Shown one piece after another: positions 32,271-56,615 of a stretch of 64,000 nucleotides of DNA. The notes below the pieces were generated by a model, which searched no databases, was not told where the DNA came from, and was given only the letters and a program-made list of their open reading frames with translations. The stretch comes from Aureimonas sp. AU20 (GTDB lineage Bacteria > Pseudomonadota > Alphaproteobacteria > Rhizobiales > Rhizobiaceae), in assembly GCF_001442755.1 (NCBI RefSeq), contig NZ_CP006367.1, forward strand, positions 682,001 to 746,000. The letters are read 5' to 3'. The first letter of the stretch is position 1; each line of letters opens with the position of its first letter. Both the position numbers and the translations under genes were made by a program.

Positions 32271-32343
32271 GGGCCAGCCTGCCTCGCGCGCTTCCCGTGA
32301 TTTTCAGTTCACGGGAAGCGCGCGAGGTCTGAAGGCCTGGCCC
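32271..32343. repeat. Long interrupted palindrome
   Basis: A perfect 19-bp stem (32282-32300 with 32309-32327, arm CCTCGCGCGCTTCCCGTGA) with an 8-base loop TTTTCAGT. Outer arms GGGCCAG (32271-32277) and CTGGCCC (32337-32343) extend it. It lies between the gpmA stop and the DUF4864 start. No T-run follows on the minus strand. Confidence 0.85.
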
Positions 32344-52300: not shown

Positions 52301-52792
52301 ATGAGCCTGGAAAGCGACATGGAGGTTCTCGGCGAGGTGCCCCTGTTTCAGGAGCTCTCGCGCGACCAACTCCGCCTTCTGGCCTTCGGCGCCGAGCACC
52401 GCGCCCTGCGCGCGGGCGAGATTCTGTTTCGCGCCGAAGCGCGGGCCGACGCCGGCTTCGTGGTCGCCTCGGGCGAGGTGCATCTGGTGGAAGGCGAGGG
52501 CGAGGAGCGCCGCATCGCCATGACCGTTGGCCGGGGCACGCTGCTCGGCGAAATGGCGCTCATGGCCGACACGCGCCGCCCCTCCTCGGCGGTCACCGCC
52601 ACCGATTGCGACTTCATCCGCATCTCGCGTCCGCTGTTCCGCCGCATGCTGCAGGAATATCCCGAGATCGCCGTCATCCTGCACCAGCGCATTCGCGACG
52701 ACTTCCTCGCCATGGCCCACCGCATTCTCGAACTCAACGACGTGTTCGACTACGACGAAGACGACGACACGCCGGCTGGTCCGCGCGAGTGA
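52301..52792 (+). CDS. Cyclic-nucleotide-binding domain protein
   Basis: A protein of 163 residues with a CAP-type beta barrel (about 10-130): LFQELSRDQLRLLAFGAEHRALRAGE, VASGEVHLVEGEG and the phosphate-binding cassette GEMALMADTRRPSSAVTA. No helix-turn-helix follows; the C-terminus is an acidic tail. It therefore senses a nucleotide or fatty molecule without binding DNA itself. Lies 215 bp after the CenR-like gene, as in Brucella. ATG 52301 chosen; Met at 52319 is possible. Confidence 0.88.
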   Translation: MSLESDMEVLGEVPLFQELSRDQLRLLAFGAEHRALRAGEILFRAEARADAGFVVASGEVHLVEGEGEERRIAMTVGRGTLLGEMALMADTRRPSSAVTATDCDFIRISRPLFRRMLQEYPEIAVILHQRIRDDFLAMAHRILELNDVFDYDEDDDTPAGPRE

Positions 52793-52794
52793 GG

Positions 52795-53001
52795 GCAGGG
52801 GACGCCGTCCCCTGCACCCTTGCCAGGGGCCGAGGCCCCTGAACCCCCGCCAGGGGCCGAGGCCCCTGAACCCCATTTCCTTTTGAGCCTATGTTCGAAC
52901 TTGGGGAGGGCCCGTGGCCCTCCCCAAGTTCGAAAAGACGTTCCAAAAGAAAGGAAGGGTTCGGGAACTCGTTCCCGAGCGGGGTCCGGGGCGGCAGCCC
53001 C
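52795..53001. repeat. Multi-hairpin convergent-gap element, copy A
   Basis: Fills the gap between the cyclic-nucleotide-binding gene and the converging DUF2244 gene. Order of hairpins: 52795-52815; CAGGGGCC-GA-GGCCCCTG duplicated in tandem at 52824-52841 and 52851-52868 (27-bp unit); a central perfect 19-bp stem 52894-52912/52916-52934 with a CGT loop; 52961-52978; 52988-53001. TTTCCTTTT on the left and AAAAGAAAGGAA on the right make the whole element nearly symmetrical. A related copy lies at 56415-56597. Confidence 0.88.
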
Positions 53002-53008
53002 ACCACCC

Positions 53009-53500
53009 TCAACCTCGCTTGGCGTCCGCCAGCGCGCGGGCGAAGGCCTTGGCGAAGCTGTCGCGATCGTCGGGGTTGAGGAAGGCGCCGAGTTCGGTGG
53101 CGCGGCCTTCGCCGGTGACGCTCATGTGGGTGACGCCGAATTCGGGGTGGCGGCGCACGAGGAAGCGCGCCCAGCCGGGATTGTAATGGGCCTCGCGCAC
53201 GGCGCCGCGCGGCGAGATCTTGCGGATCGAAAGGTCGGTGCGCGAGACGGAGACTTCCTCGCGGGCCTGGGCGGAGCGGAACGAGGCGCGCAGCGCGAAC
53301 CAGAGCAACGCCACGTCGAGGCCGAAGAAGCCGACGATGGGCCAGGCGCCGTTCAAGACGAAGGCGAGGCCGGATACGAGGCTGGCCCCGCCGAAGAGCG
53401 CCATGGTGACGTGGAAGCCGCGCCGCCCGAGCGAGCGATAGGGCGTCAGCAGCGCCTCGAAGAGGGGCGTGTCGGCTGGGCTCCGTTCGGCTGTGCTCAT
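53009..53500 (-). CDS. DUF2244 domain membrane protein
   Basis: A protein of 163 residues. Two adjacent transmembrane helices at about 30-75 (FHVTMALFGGASLVSG and IVGFFGLDVALLWFAL), followed by the DUF2244 soluble part (ISPRGAVREAHYNPGWARFLV, GAFLNPDDRDSFAKAFARAL). ATG 53500 with AAGGGCGG upstream; the larger open frame overlaps nth. Function unknown; often found near an nth-type gene in Rhizobiales, as here. Confidence 0.88.
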   Translation of the reverse strand: MSTAERSPADTPLFEALLTPYRSLGRRGFHVTMALFGGASLVSGLAFVLNGAWPIVGFFGLDVALLWFALRASFRSAQAREEVSVSRTDLSIRKISPRGAVREAHYNPGWARFLVRRHPEFGVTHMSVTGEGRATELGAFLNPDDRDSFAKAFARALADAKRG

Positions 53501-53592: not shown

Positions 53593-54588
53593 ATGGCAGA
53601 CAAAGACGCCTCCCCGAAAGCCCCCGCGCGTAAGTCGAAGGCCACCGCGACGAAACCACGCGCAGCCAAGGCCGCCAAGGATGGCGCGTCGGCCTCGGAG
53701 GGAACGGACCGCAAGCCAGCGGCGCCGAAGGCTGGCAAGGCCCCCAAGGCGTCTGCCCGACCCACTGCCAAGCCGAGTGCCAAGGCTGGCACCAAGGCCG
53801 CTGCCAAGTCCGGGGCGACGGTCGCACGTGCGACGAAGAGGAAGGCCGCGGAGAGCCATCCCGCCATTCCCTATTCGGCCGAGGAGATCGCCGAAATCTT
53901 CCGCCGCTTTGCCGTTCAGCGGCCTCACCCGACCTCGGAACTGGAGCATGTCAACACGTTCACCCTTCTGGTGGCCGTGGTGCTCTCGGCGCAGATGACC
54001 GACGCGGGGGTGAACCGGGCGACGCGCGGCCTCTTCGCTCGGGCCTCGACGCCCGAAGCCATGGCGGCTCTCGGCGAGGACGAGATCCGCGAGGCGATCA
54101 AGACGATCGGCTTCTTCCGCACCAAGGCCAAGAACGTCCAGCGCCTGTCGGAAATGCTGCGCGACGAGCATGGCGGCGAGGTGCCGCGCTCGCGCGAGGC
54201 GCTGGAAGGGCTGCCGGGCGTCGGCCGCAAGACGGCCAACGTCATCATGAACACGGCCTTCGGCGAGGAAACGCTGGCGGTCGACACGCATATCCTACGC
54301 ATCGGCAACCGGCTGAAGATCGCCCCCGGCAAGACGCCCGAGGCGGTGGAGGAAGGCTTCCTCAAGATCATTCCCGAGGGCTTCCTGCGCCATGCCCATC
54401 ACTGGCTGATCCTGCACGGGCGCTTCGTCTGCAAGGCGCGCAAGCCCGACTGCGAGCACTGCGTCATCGCCGATCTCTGCAAGGCCGACGAGAAATGGTG
54501 CGACCAGCCGGCCCCGCTCATCGCGCTGCCGGATGCTCCTCCCGGGCCGCAACCCTTGCCTCCCGGGGCAACGCGCCCAGGCGGGTGA
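53593..54588 (+). CDS. nth: Endonuclease III with histone-H1-like N-terminal tail
   Basis: DNA glycosylase/AP lyase for oxidised pyrimidines, 331 residues against about 211 in E. coli. The catalytic part starts near residue 95: LLVAVVLSAQMTDAGVN, HhH motif LPGVGRKTANVIM with the catalytic Lys, VDTHILRIGNR with the catalytic Asp, and the iron-sulfur loop C-x6-C-x2-C-x5-C. The first 90 residues are a Lys/Ala/Pro/Ser tail (AKPSAKAGTKAAAKSG type) like histone H1 or bacterial H1-like proteins. The last 71 bp overlap the converging membrane-protein gene. Confidence 0.95.
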   Translation: MADKDASPKAPARKSKATATKPRAAKAAKDGASASEGTDRKPAAPKAGKAPKASARPTAKPSAKAGTKAAAKSGATVARATKRKAAESHPAIPYSAEEIAEIFRRFAVQRPHPTSELEHVNTFTLLVAVVLSAQMTDAGVNRATRGLFARASTPEAMAALGEDEIREAIKTIGFFRTKAKNVQRLSEMLRDEHGGEVPRSREALEGLPGVGRKTANVIMNTAFGEETLAVDTHILRIGNRLKIAPGKTPEAVEEGFLKIIPEGFLRHAHHWLILHGRFVCKARKPDCEHCVIADLCKADEKWCDQPAPLIALPDAPPGPQPLPPGATRPGG

Positions 54589-55407: not shown

Positions 55408-56406
55408 ATGTCCCGTTTCGACCTCCTGACGATCGGCAATGCCATCGTCGACATCCTCTCGCGCACCGACGACGCCTTCCTGCGCGAGGCGGGGATCGAA
55501 AAAGGGGCCATGACTCTGGTCGACACGGCCCGCGCCCTCGACATCTACGGCCGCATGGGCACGGCCATCGAAATGTCGGGCGGCAGCGCCGCCAACACGG
55601 CCGCCGGCCTCGTCTCGCTCGGTGGACGCGGCGCCTATTTCGGCAAGGTCTCGGACGACCAGCTCGGCACGATCTTCGCCCACGACATCCAGGCGCTCGG
55701 CGTCCACTACCAGACCCGGCCGCTCGCCGGCGATCCGCCCACCGCCCGCTGCATGATCCTCGTCACGCCCGACGGCGAGCGTTCCATGAACACCTATCTC
55801 GGCGCCTGCGTCGAGCTCGGGCCCGAGGACATCGAGGAATCCGTCGTCGCCGACAGTCTCGTCACCTATTTCGAAGGCTATCTCTGGGACCCGCCGCGCG
55901 CCAAGGACGCCATTCTCCAAGCCGCCGCCATCGCCCATCGCAACGGACGCGAGATGGCCATGACTTTGTCCGATTCCTTCTGCGTCCATCGCTACCGCGC
56001 CGAGTTCCTCGACCTCATGCGCTCCGGCACGGTCGACATCGTCTTCGCCAACGAGTCCGAAGCCCTCGCGCTCTACGAGACCGAGGATCTCGACGACGCG
56101 CTCGCCCGCATCGGTGCCGACACCAAGCGCCTCGCCATCGTCACCCGCGGGCCGGACGGCTGCGTCGTGATCGAGGGCGGCCAGGCCACGGCCTATCCCG
56201 CCACCGCCGTCGATACGTTGGTCGACACGACCGGCGCCGGCGACCTCTTCGCCAGCGGCTTCCTGCGCGGCTACACCGCCGGCCTCGGCCACGAAAAGAG
56301 CGCCGCCCTCGGTGCCCTCGCCGCCGGCCACATCATCACCCAGATCGGCCCCCGCCCCCAGACGCCCCTGATCGATCTGCCCGGCGCACGGGCGCTGTTG
56401 GGCTGA
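55408..56406 (+). CDS. PfkB-family kinase, adenosine kinase-like
   Basis: A sugar/nucleoside kinase, 332 residues. N-terminal IGNAIVDILSRTDDAFL and EMSGGSAANTAAGLVSLGG, ATP motif DTTGAGDLFASGFLRG with the catalytic Asp (second PfkB signature) and NESEALALY. The pattern is that of the bacterial adenosine kinase-like group; substrate not proven. Ends just before the second hairpin element. Confidence 0.92.
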   Translation: MSRFDLLTIGNAIVDILSRTDDAFLREAGIEKGAMTLVDTARALDIYGRMGTAIEMSGGSAANTAAGLVSLGGRGAYFGKVSDDQLGTIFAHDIQALGVHYQTRPLAGDPPTARCMILVTPDGERSMNTYLGACVELGPEDIEESVVADSLVTYFEGYLWDPPRAKDAILQAAAIAHRNGREMAMTLSDSFCVHRYRAEFLDLMRSGTVDIVFANESEALALYETEDLDDALARIGADTKRLAIVTRGPDGCVVIEGGQATAYPATAVDTLVDTTGAGDLFASGFLRGYTAGLGHEKSAALGALAAGHIITQIGPRPQTPLIDLPGARALLG

Positions 56407-56414
56407 GGGGAGAG

Positions 56415-56597
56415 GCAGGGGACGGCCGTCCCCTGCACCCCTGCCAGGGGCCGAGGCCCCTGGACCCCGTTTCCTTTCGAGCTGATGTCCGACCCCAGGG
56501 AGGGCCGCTGGCCCTCTCTGGGGTCGGAAAAGAGTCCCGAAAGAACGCGGGGGTTCCGGGGCGTCAGGCCCCGGGCGGGGCACGGGGCGGCAGCCCC
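56415..56597. repeat. Multi-hairpin convergent-gap element, copy B
   Basis: Fills the gap between the adenosine-kinase-like gene and the converging comM. Hairpins in the same order as copy A: a perfect 11-bp stem 56415-56436; CCAGGGGCC-GA-GGCCCCTGG at 56444-56463 (one copy only); a central 19-bp stem 56488-56506/56510-56528 with one G-T pair; 56556-56562/56568-56574; 56584-56597. Compared with copy A, five central pairs differ and all are compensated. Confidence 0.88.
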
Positions 56598-56615
56598 GCC
56601 ATTCCCCTCAGCCCA

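Follow-up and report, generated by a model that had tools for sequence, protein, structure and literature searches.

A composite palindromic repeat of Aureimonas that stays at orthologous intergenic sites and changes orientation there

A hairpin-rich element present twice in a 64,000-nucleotide stretch of the Aureimonas sp. AU20 genome (NZ_CP006367.1, positions 682,001 to 746,000; the window) belongs to a family of intergenic repeats that keep their genomic sites across the genus while their orientation at those sites changes. Each element is a composite palindrome of about 190 bp, in which two units of "hairpin + ACCCC" face two inverted units across a spacer formed by a 19-bp hairpin. We read the family as a RAYT-less, site-bound, REPIN-like element that is remodelled by DNA recombination and probably acts on transcript ends, and put the probability of this reading at roughly 0.6.

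Copy A spans the entire 216-bp gap at 52793..53008 (plus strand, as for all features below) between two convergent genes, one for a cyclic-nucleotide-binding protein, with its stop codon at 52790-52792, the other for a DUF2244 protein, whose stop codon lies at 53009-53011. It consists of hairpin H1 (52795..52815), H2 as two tandem units (52823..52841 and 52850..52868, the second aligning with the other copies), a left linker (52876..52883) predicted to pair as helix P2 with a right linker (52950..52956), the central hairpin H3 (52894..52934; 19 bp, 3-nt loop), H4 (52961..52978) and H5 (52987..53001). Copy B occupies the gap between a pfkB-family kinase gene, which by our reading is adenosine-kinase-like ("adoK"), and a Mg-chelatase/ComM-like gene. 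Its element (56412..56602) comprises H1 (56415..56436), H2 (56444..56462), the left linker (56470..56477) with its predicted P2 partner (56539..56545), H3 (56488..56528; 19 bp, 3-nt loop, one G.T pair), H4 (56556..56574) and H5 (56583..56597), and it is enclosed by two complementary outer arms, GCTGAGGGGA (56402..56411), which crosses the kinase stop codon, and TCCCCTCAGC (56603..56612).

The plan shared by both copies is H1-ACCCC-H2-ACCCC-linker-H3-linker'-H4-GCGGGG-H5, the right half repeating the grammar of the left in inverted form; copy A departs from it by a first run of ACCCT and by the doubled H2. Linkers and inter-hairpin runs can also pair across the element (P1 and P2), and the predicted consensus fold is nested and branched. 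Both copies fold far more stably than their shuffled versions (z of -9.46 for A and -9.39 for B, with 0 of 200 shuffles as stable in each case). The initial annotation had described the two central stems as equal in length, with left-arm positions 2, 6, 8, 9 and 10 differing between the copies and the partner base changing each time, and with position 12 passing from G-C in A to G.T in B; a check of the sequence bears out every one of these details. Its statement that the copies share order and spacing of five hairpins holds for the order, whereas A has six hairpins owing to the tandem H2, and the spacing on the left differs by 27 nt. Other long perfect hairpins in the window, at 1166-1206 and 32282-32327 (stems of 16 and 19 bp), are unrelated in sequence.

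Further copies were found by BLAST and a covariance model. In the 5.2-Mb genome of AU20 itself, BLAST returned 13 matching pieces including A, which amount to 8 full copies plus a half copy, and the covariance model matched 14 of 21 Aureimonas genomes, leaving 7 without a match. Beyond the genus it matched a single genome among 40 of the same family and order. From the matches listed, 120 copies of 14 genomes were re-scored and form our copy set; the total is at least 120, weaker copies lying outside the set. Among the matches listed there are about 5-14 copies per genome, but 4 in G006. One full and one half copy (L007, 1454-1675; L010, G000:C1 at about 315.6 kb) of the AU20 genome carry an extra hairpin inserted inside H4, so the modules can nest.

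A 19-bp H3 with a 3-nt loop and at least 15 Watson-Crick pairs was found in 112 of the 120 listed copies, 58 of them perfect and 40 with one departure; the 8 copies omitted from these counts lack such a 19-3-19 stem; in several of them the stem has 18 bp or the loop 4 nt. All four Watson-Crick pairs occur at positions 2 to 10. The length of H3 is near-constant despite turnover of its sequence. In these 112 copies, H1 was not located in 7, H2 in 1, H4 in 10 and H5 in 4. Across the 8 full copies of AU20, 16 pairs have changed on both sides, compared with 8.6 in shuffles (0/500) and 2-6 in slid versions; the number of further pair types, one of five covariation measures, was unexceptional in the same copies (26 vs 23.5 in shuffles, 81/500). 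With compensated differences in additional copies and folds far below those of shuffled sequences, the proposal of a real composite structured element whose fold is kept under sequence drift is upheld.

To group copies by site, up to 900 bp of flank on each side were compared, and both flanks were required to be orthologous. On this basis 112 of the 120 listed copies fall in 25 orthologous intergenic sites, five stand alone and three lie at rearranged sites. The largest site is occupied in all 14 genomes that carry the family, another one in 11. Within the sites, orientation differs in 138 of 335 pairs of orthologs, and these relations are free of contradiction; 14 of the 335 pairs fit slightly better in the orientation opposite to the one assigned. 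Orientation is polymorphic at 13 of the 25 sites. The flank tree requires at least 26 inversions, a number also reached when labels are shuffled (mean 25.4). The flips are especially clear in the close pair G015 and G010: at site 2 their flanks are 97% and 96% identical, and the element reaches 77% as placed and 94% once reverse-complemented, while at site 8 the corresponding values are 94% and 96% for the flanks and 72% and 94% for the element. The element at site 4, where copy B resides, is forward in four genomes (G000, G016, G008, G015) and reversed in three (G004, G002, G010).

No flip was seen at the other 12 sites, nine of which have just two members (out of 12 two-member sites in all). 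The sole unflipped sites among the 13 with at least three members are sites 1, 10 and 11, represented in 11, 3 and 3 genomes. All three lie between the gene of a solute-binding protein and that of a permease in ABC-transporter operons, and H1 invariably adjoins the binding-protein gene. The REPs between malE and malF of E. coli have been proposed to favour the mRNA of the binding protein over that of the permease. By analogy, and more tentatively than the recombination part of our reading, the constant orientation in the three operons could mean that the element favours binding-protein over permease mRNA in a malE-malF-like manner. Site 1, with its 11 genomes, supplies most of this constancy; it has no flanking palindrome, and may therefore lack the means to flip.

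Sites also exchange their occupants. The closest relative of a listed copy is at the same site for 34 of 120, at a different site in its own genome for 34 and elsewhere for 52, that is, at another site for 86 of 120. Over the 12 variable stem positions, copies at one site have a mean identity of 0.53, copies in one genome 0.54 and all others 0.45. In G018 one identical central stem is common to four copies, and the stem of a fifth is longer by one base pair. The same genome contains one element that combines the left flank of site 4 with the right flank of site 8 and a second that forms the reciprocal join; they lie on G018:C1 at 76.0 kb (L129) and 85.0 kb (L131). The reciprocal swap of flanks together with these coordinates identifies an inversion of about 9 kb that broke at the two elements, each of them marking one breakpoint.

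The palindrome, moreover, extends beyond the element, and co-evolution is seen in the unique DNA adjoining it. Comparing the 24 outer bases on each side, the left flank matched the reverse complement of the right with a score of 7.62, compared with 6.04 (sd 0.14) for shuffled pairings, none of 200 reaching the observed value. Within sites, a left flank matched its own right flank better (7.82, n=88) than the right flank of another species (6.76, n=646; 0/500), based on the 88 copies from the 13 sites with at least three members. This flank palindromy decays to nil by 80 bp outside the element; at copy B it takes in GCTGAGGGGA/TCCCCTCAGC and runs through the kinase stop codon. Flank scores are at background level at sites 9, 12, 18 and 19, all of which have flipped, and hence a flank palindrome is unnecessary for flipping. 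We suggest that the elements are remodelled by DNA recombination, namely by ectopic gene conversion between copies and, between the symmetric arms, by inversion or strand switching. Since two palindromes can be aligned in either direction, recombination of this type would account jointly for flips, exchange and palindromy.

Units of like build are not restricted to Aureimonas. As the initial annotation had thought possible for other alphaproteobacteria, similar hairpins followed by ACCCC-like runs occur in other bacteria: of 398 genomes sampled across the phylum, 37 contain the unit CAGGGG-N6-12-CCCCTGNACCCC, with 243 exact matches in one of them, and the reversed control pattern gave 0 in every row. 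In some distant Pseudomonadota genomes (e.g., L214, L217 and L220) the units are very numerous and often arrayed in tandem, and their stems are perfect palindromes that differ in sequence. The same end grammar with another centre was found in Desulfovibrio (L053, L055), in an alphaproteobacterial MAG (L059) and in a genome (L037, G047) from another family of the order; it was seen also in Streptomyces sp. B-S-A6 (L060-L062), again with a differing centre. The exact 26-mer CGAGCGGGGTNCGGGGCGGCAGCCCC is present in L053, L055, L059 and L060-L062, not in L037.

There is also a bolder version of our reading, which we regard as possible, if doubtful. Here a folded palindrome would be needed at each site for the lifetime of the genus, and a RAYT-independent process recognising hairpin-ACCCC would invert, swap and re-copy the occupants, extend their palindromy into unique DNA and stop codons, and act on units of this type in other proteobacteria and beyond, with selection holding the orientation where transcription in one direction matters, as in the transporter operons.

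It is rather unlikely, in our view, that the elements are functionless old palindromes that owe their upkeep solely to gene conversion and to strand switching in replication, and that are slowly lost. Strand switching yields flank palindromy and strand-neutral perfect stems, and loss does occur: at the B site of G006 only about 11 bp separate the stop codons, as read from the printed sequence, a near-empty gap that represents a clean loss, and the seven congeners without a match point the same way. Against this stand the sites occupied in 14 of 14 and in 11 genomes, a stem length fixed at 19 bp despite sequence turnover, and the unchanging orientation in three operons.

A mobile REPIN- or MITE-like element served by a transposase in trans appears improbable. 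Its attractions are the REPIN-like architecture, the four G018 copies with an identical stem and a fifth that is one base pair longer, and the five copies outside any orthologous group. Yet a search for Y1_Tnp (RAYT), the one transposase family looked for, found it neither in AU20 nor in any of 21 Aureimonas genomes, with 5 of 14 control genomes positive; 112 of the 120 listed copies reside at shared old sites; and the shared stems are found at sites that other species fill as well, so exchange fits them equally. Dispersal to new sites, as in REPINs, is doubtful here: most copies occupy shared sites, five stand alone and three are at rearranged sites, and some stems are common to several sites of one genome. 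A REP driven by a RAYT was rejected on the absence of Y1_Tnp from all 21 genomes. Among 12 distant genomes with many hairpin-ACCCC units, 9 do have Y1_Tnp; none of the units lay near Y1 at the 8 Y1 loci examined there, and we claim no link.

The surroundings of the elements suggest an effect at gene ends. Each site was assigned one context class, using a gene finder that, between 51.4 and 58.8 kb of the window, recovered the main genes except that of endonuclease III (53593-54588). The 25 sites comprise 7 convergent, 4 divergent and 14 same-direction gaps, so that convergent gaps are in excess over the background (20 of 245 gaps; Fisher p 0.006); the count per site was used, since the count per copy (37 of 111) is inflated by orthologs. 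The median distance to gene 3' ends is 14 bp, vs 61 bp to 5' ends (111 copies). Neighbours could be named by Pfam at 18 of the 25 sites, the unnamed ones (8, 9, 17 and 21-24) being convergent or divergent. We propose, with less confidence than for recombination, that the folded form would block 3' ends in either orientation and stabilise transcripts from either side, so that the site is retained.

Both the convergent excess and the proximity to 3' ends would likewise suit bidirectional intrinsic transcription terminators, an explanation that we find decidedly improbable. T-rich runs (at least 5 of 10) are essentially absent, with 1 of 120 after H5, 1 of 120 after H1, and 0 and 1 of 112 after H3, a criterion that is blind to U-less termination, and four of the 25 sites are divergent. 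Among the latter is the site occupied in every one of the 14 genomes, between a proteasome-family/HslV-like gene and an imidazoleglycerol-phosphate dehydratase gene. This site does not fit a role at 3' ends; it needs DNA topology, protein binding or neutrality instead.

The initial annotation had nominated A and B as an undescribed structured RNA or DNA element. A structured element outside Rfam it is: the window contains no family at gathering score, and at E up to 1 returned solely eukaryotic microRNA models with scores far under their cut-offs. The part of the proposal that found no support is an RNA acting from one strand, such as an sRNA or a riboswitch-like leader, with selection on its RNA fold. 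Strong two-sided covariation and the elaborate branched predicted fold speak for it. Folded RNA, however, tolerates G·U and not A·C, and when all hairpins of the 112 copies were checked for a one-strand surplus of G.U relative to A.C, none was found: G.T and A.C mismatches number 32:25 in H3, 15:22 in the other hairpins and 47:47 overall. As a control, the RNase P RNAs of these 14 genomes give a ratio of 40:4, taken over 109 pairs of a predicted consensus structure, each at least 60% Watson-Crick. The fold is therefore kept equally for both strands, which means a process or constraint at the DNA level, or the use of both transcripts. Free flipping, flank palindromy and sites in every gene arrangement add to the case against a one-strand RNA, which we hold to be very improbable, and the balance of the data lies with a palindromic repeat at the DNA level, REPIN/BIME-like in its build. 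Single hairpins show a mismatch asymmetry, with A.C over G.T at 20:5 in H1/H2 and G.T over A.C at 10:2 in H4, the mismatches being common to orthologous copies; strand-wise mutation bias or shared ancestry are possible reasons. A phase-variation switch, in which a dedicated recombinase inverts the element and alters the expression of its neighbours, would account for many in-place inversions, but is hardly credible with neighbours that are unrelated and largely housekeeping and a fold that is much alike in both orientations; each assembly shows a single orientation.

Compensated changes in a stem are commonly taken as proof of a functional RNA. The Aureimonas family offers a clean test case for telling selection on RNA from the upkeep of a DNA palindrome, because its covariation is strand-balanced, is joined with in-place inversion and spreads into unique flanks. 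It is also a REPIN-like element without RAYT whose residence, orientation and exchange can be traced site by site across a genus, and the flipping sites and the orientation-constant transporter operons provide a natural contrast. Among the matches listed in open-licence literature, we found no account of this element or of in-place flipping in such repeats.

BIMEs bind gyrase, IHF or Pol I. In enterobacteria they are mosaics of palindromic units in alternating orientation, as defined in PMC2817692. The Aureimonas element resembles them in its alternating palindromic units, its intergenic position near gene 3' ends and its occurrence also between binding-protein and permease genes; it differs as a single composite with a fixed plan from their variable clusters, a comparison made by description and not by sequence. 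REPs tagged GTAG or CGTC and untagged palindromic repeats are dispersed palindromes, some without a transposase, according to the consulted sections of PMC3733652, which name no family with our foot for this group. Instead of a GTAG or CGTC tag, the foot of the Aureimonas palindrome is ACCCC/GGGGT, as judged by eye in the alignment of 8 copies. REPINs, as the consulted sections of PMC3116915 portray them, are extragenic REP doublets that form hairpins and are predicted to fold as a single hairpin; they have conserved inverted end units and a spacer that is conserved in length and in the ability to form a hairpin but not in sequence, and compensatory changes are common. Inverted conserved units, a hairpin spacer of kept length and compensatory changes are all found in the Aureimonas element, too. 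Unlike REPINs, it comes without a Y1 transposase in the 21 genomes searched and in about 5-14 listed copies per genome (4 in G006), sits at fixed orthologous sites, has two hairpin units per side, is palindromic into unique flanks and flips in place, a behaviour that we found no mention of in those sections. The family is thus a RAYT-less variant that works like REPIN/BIME and is filed outside the members of the REP-RAYT system.
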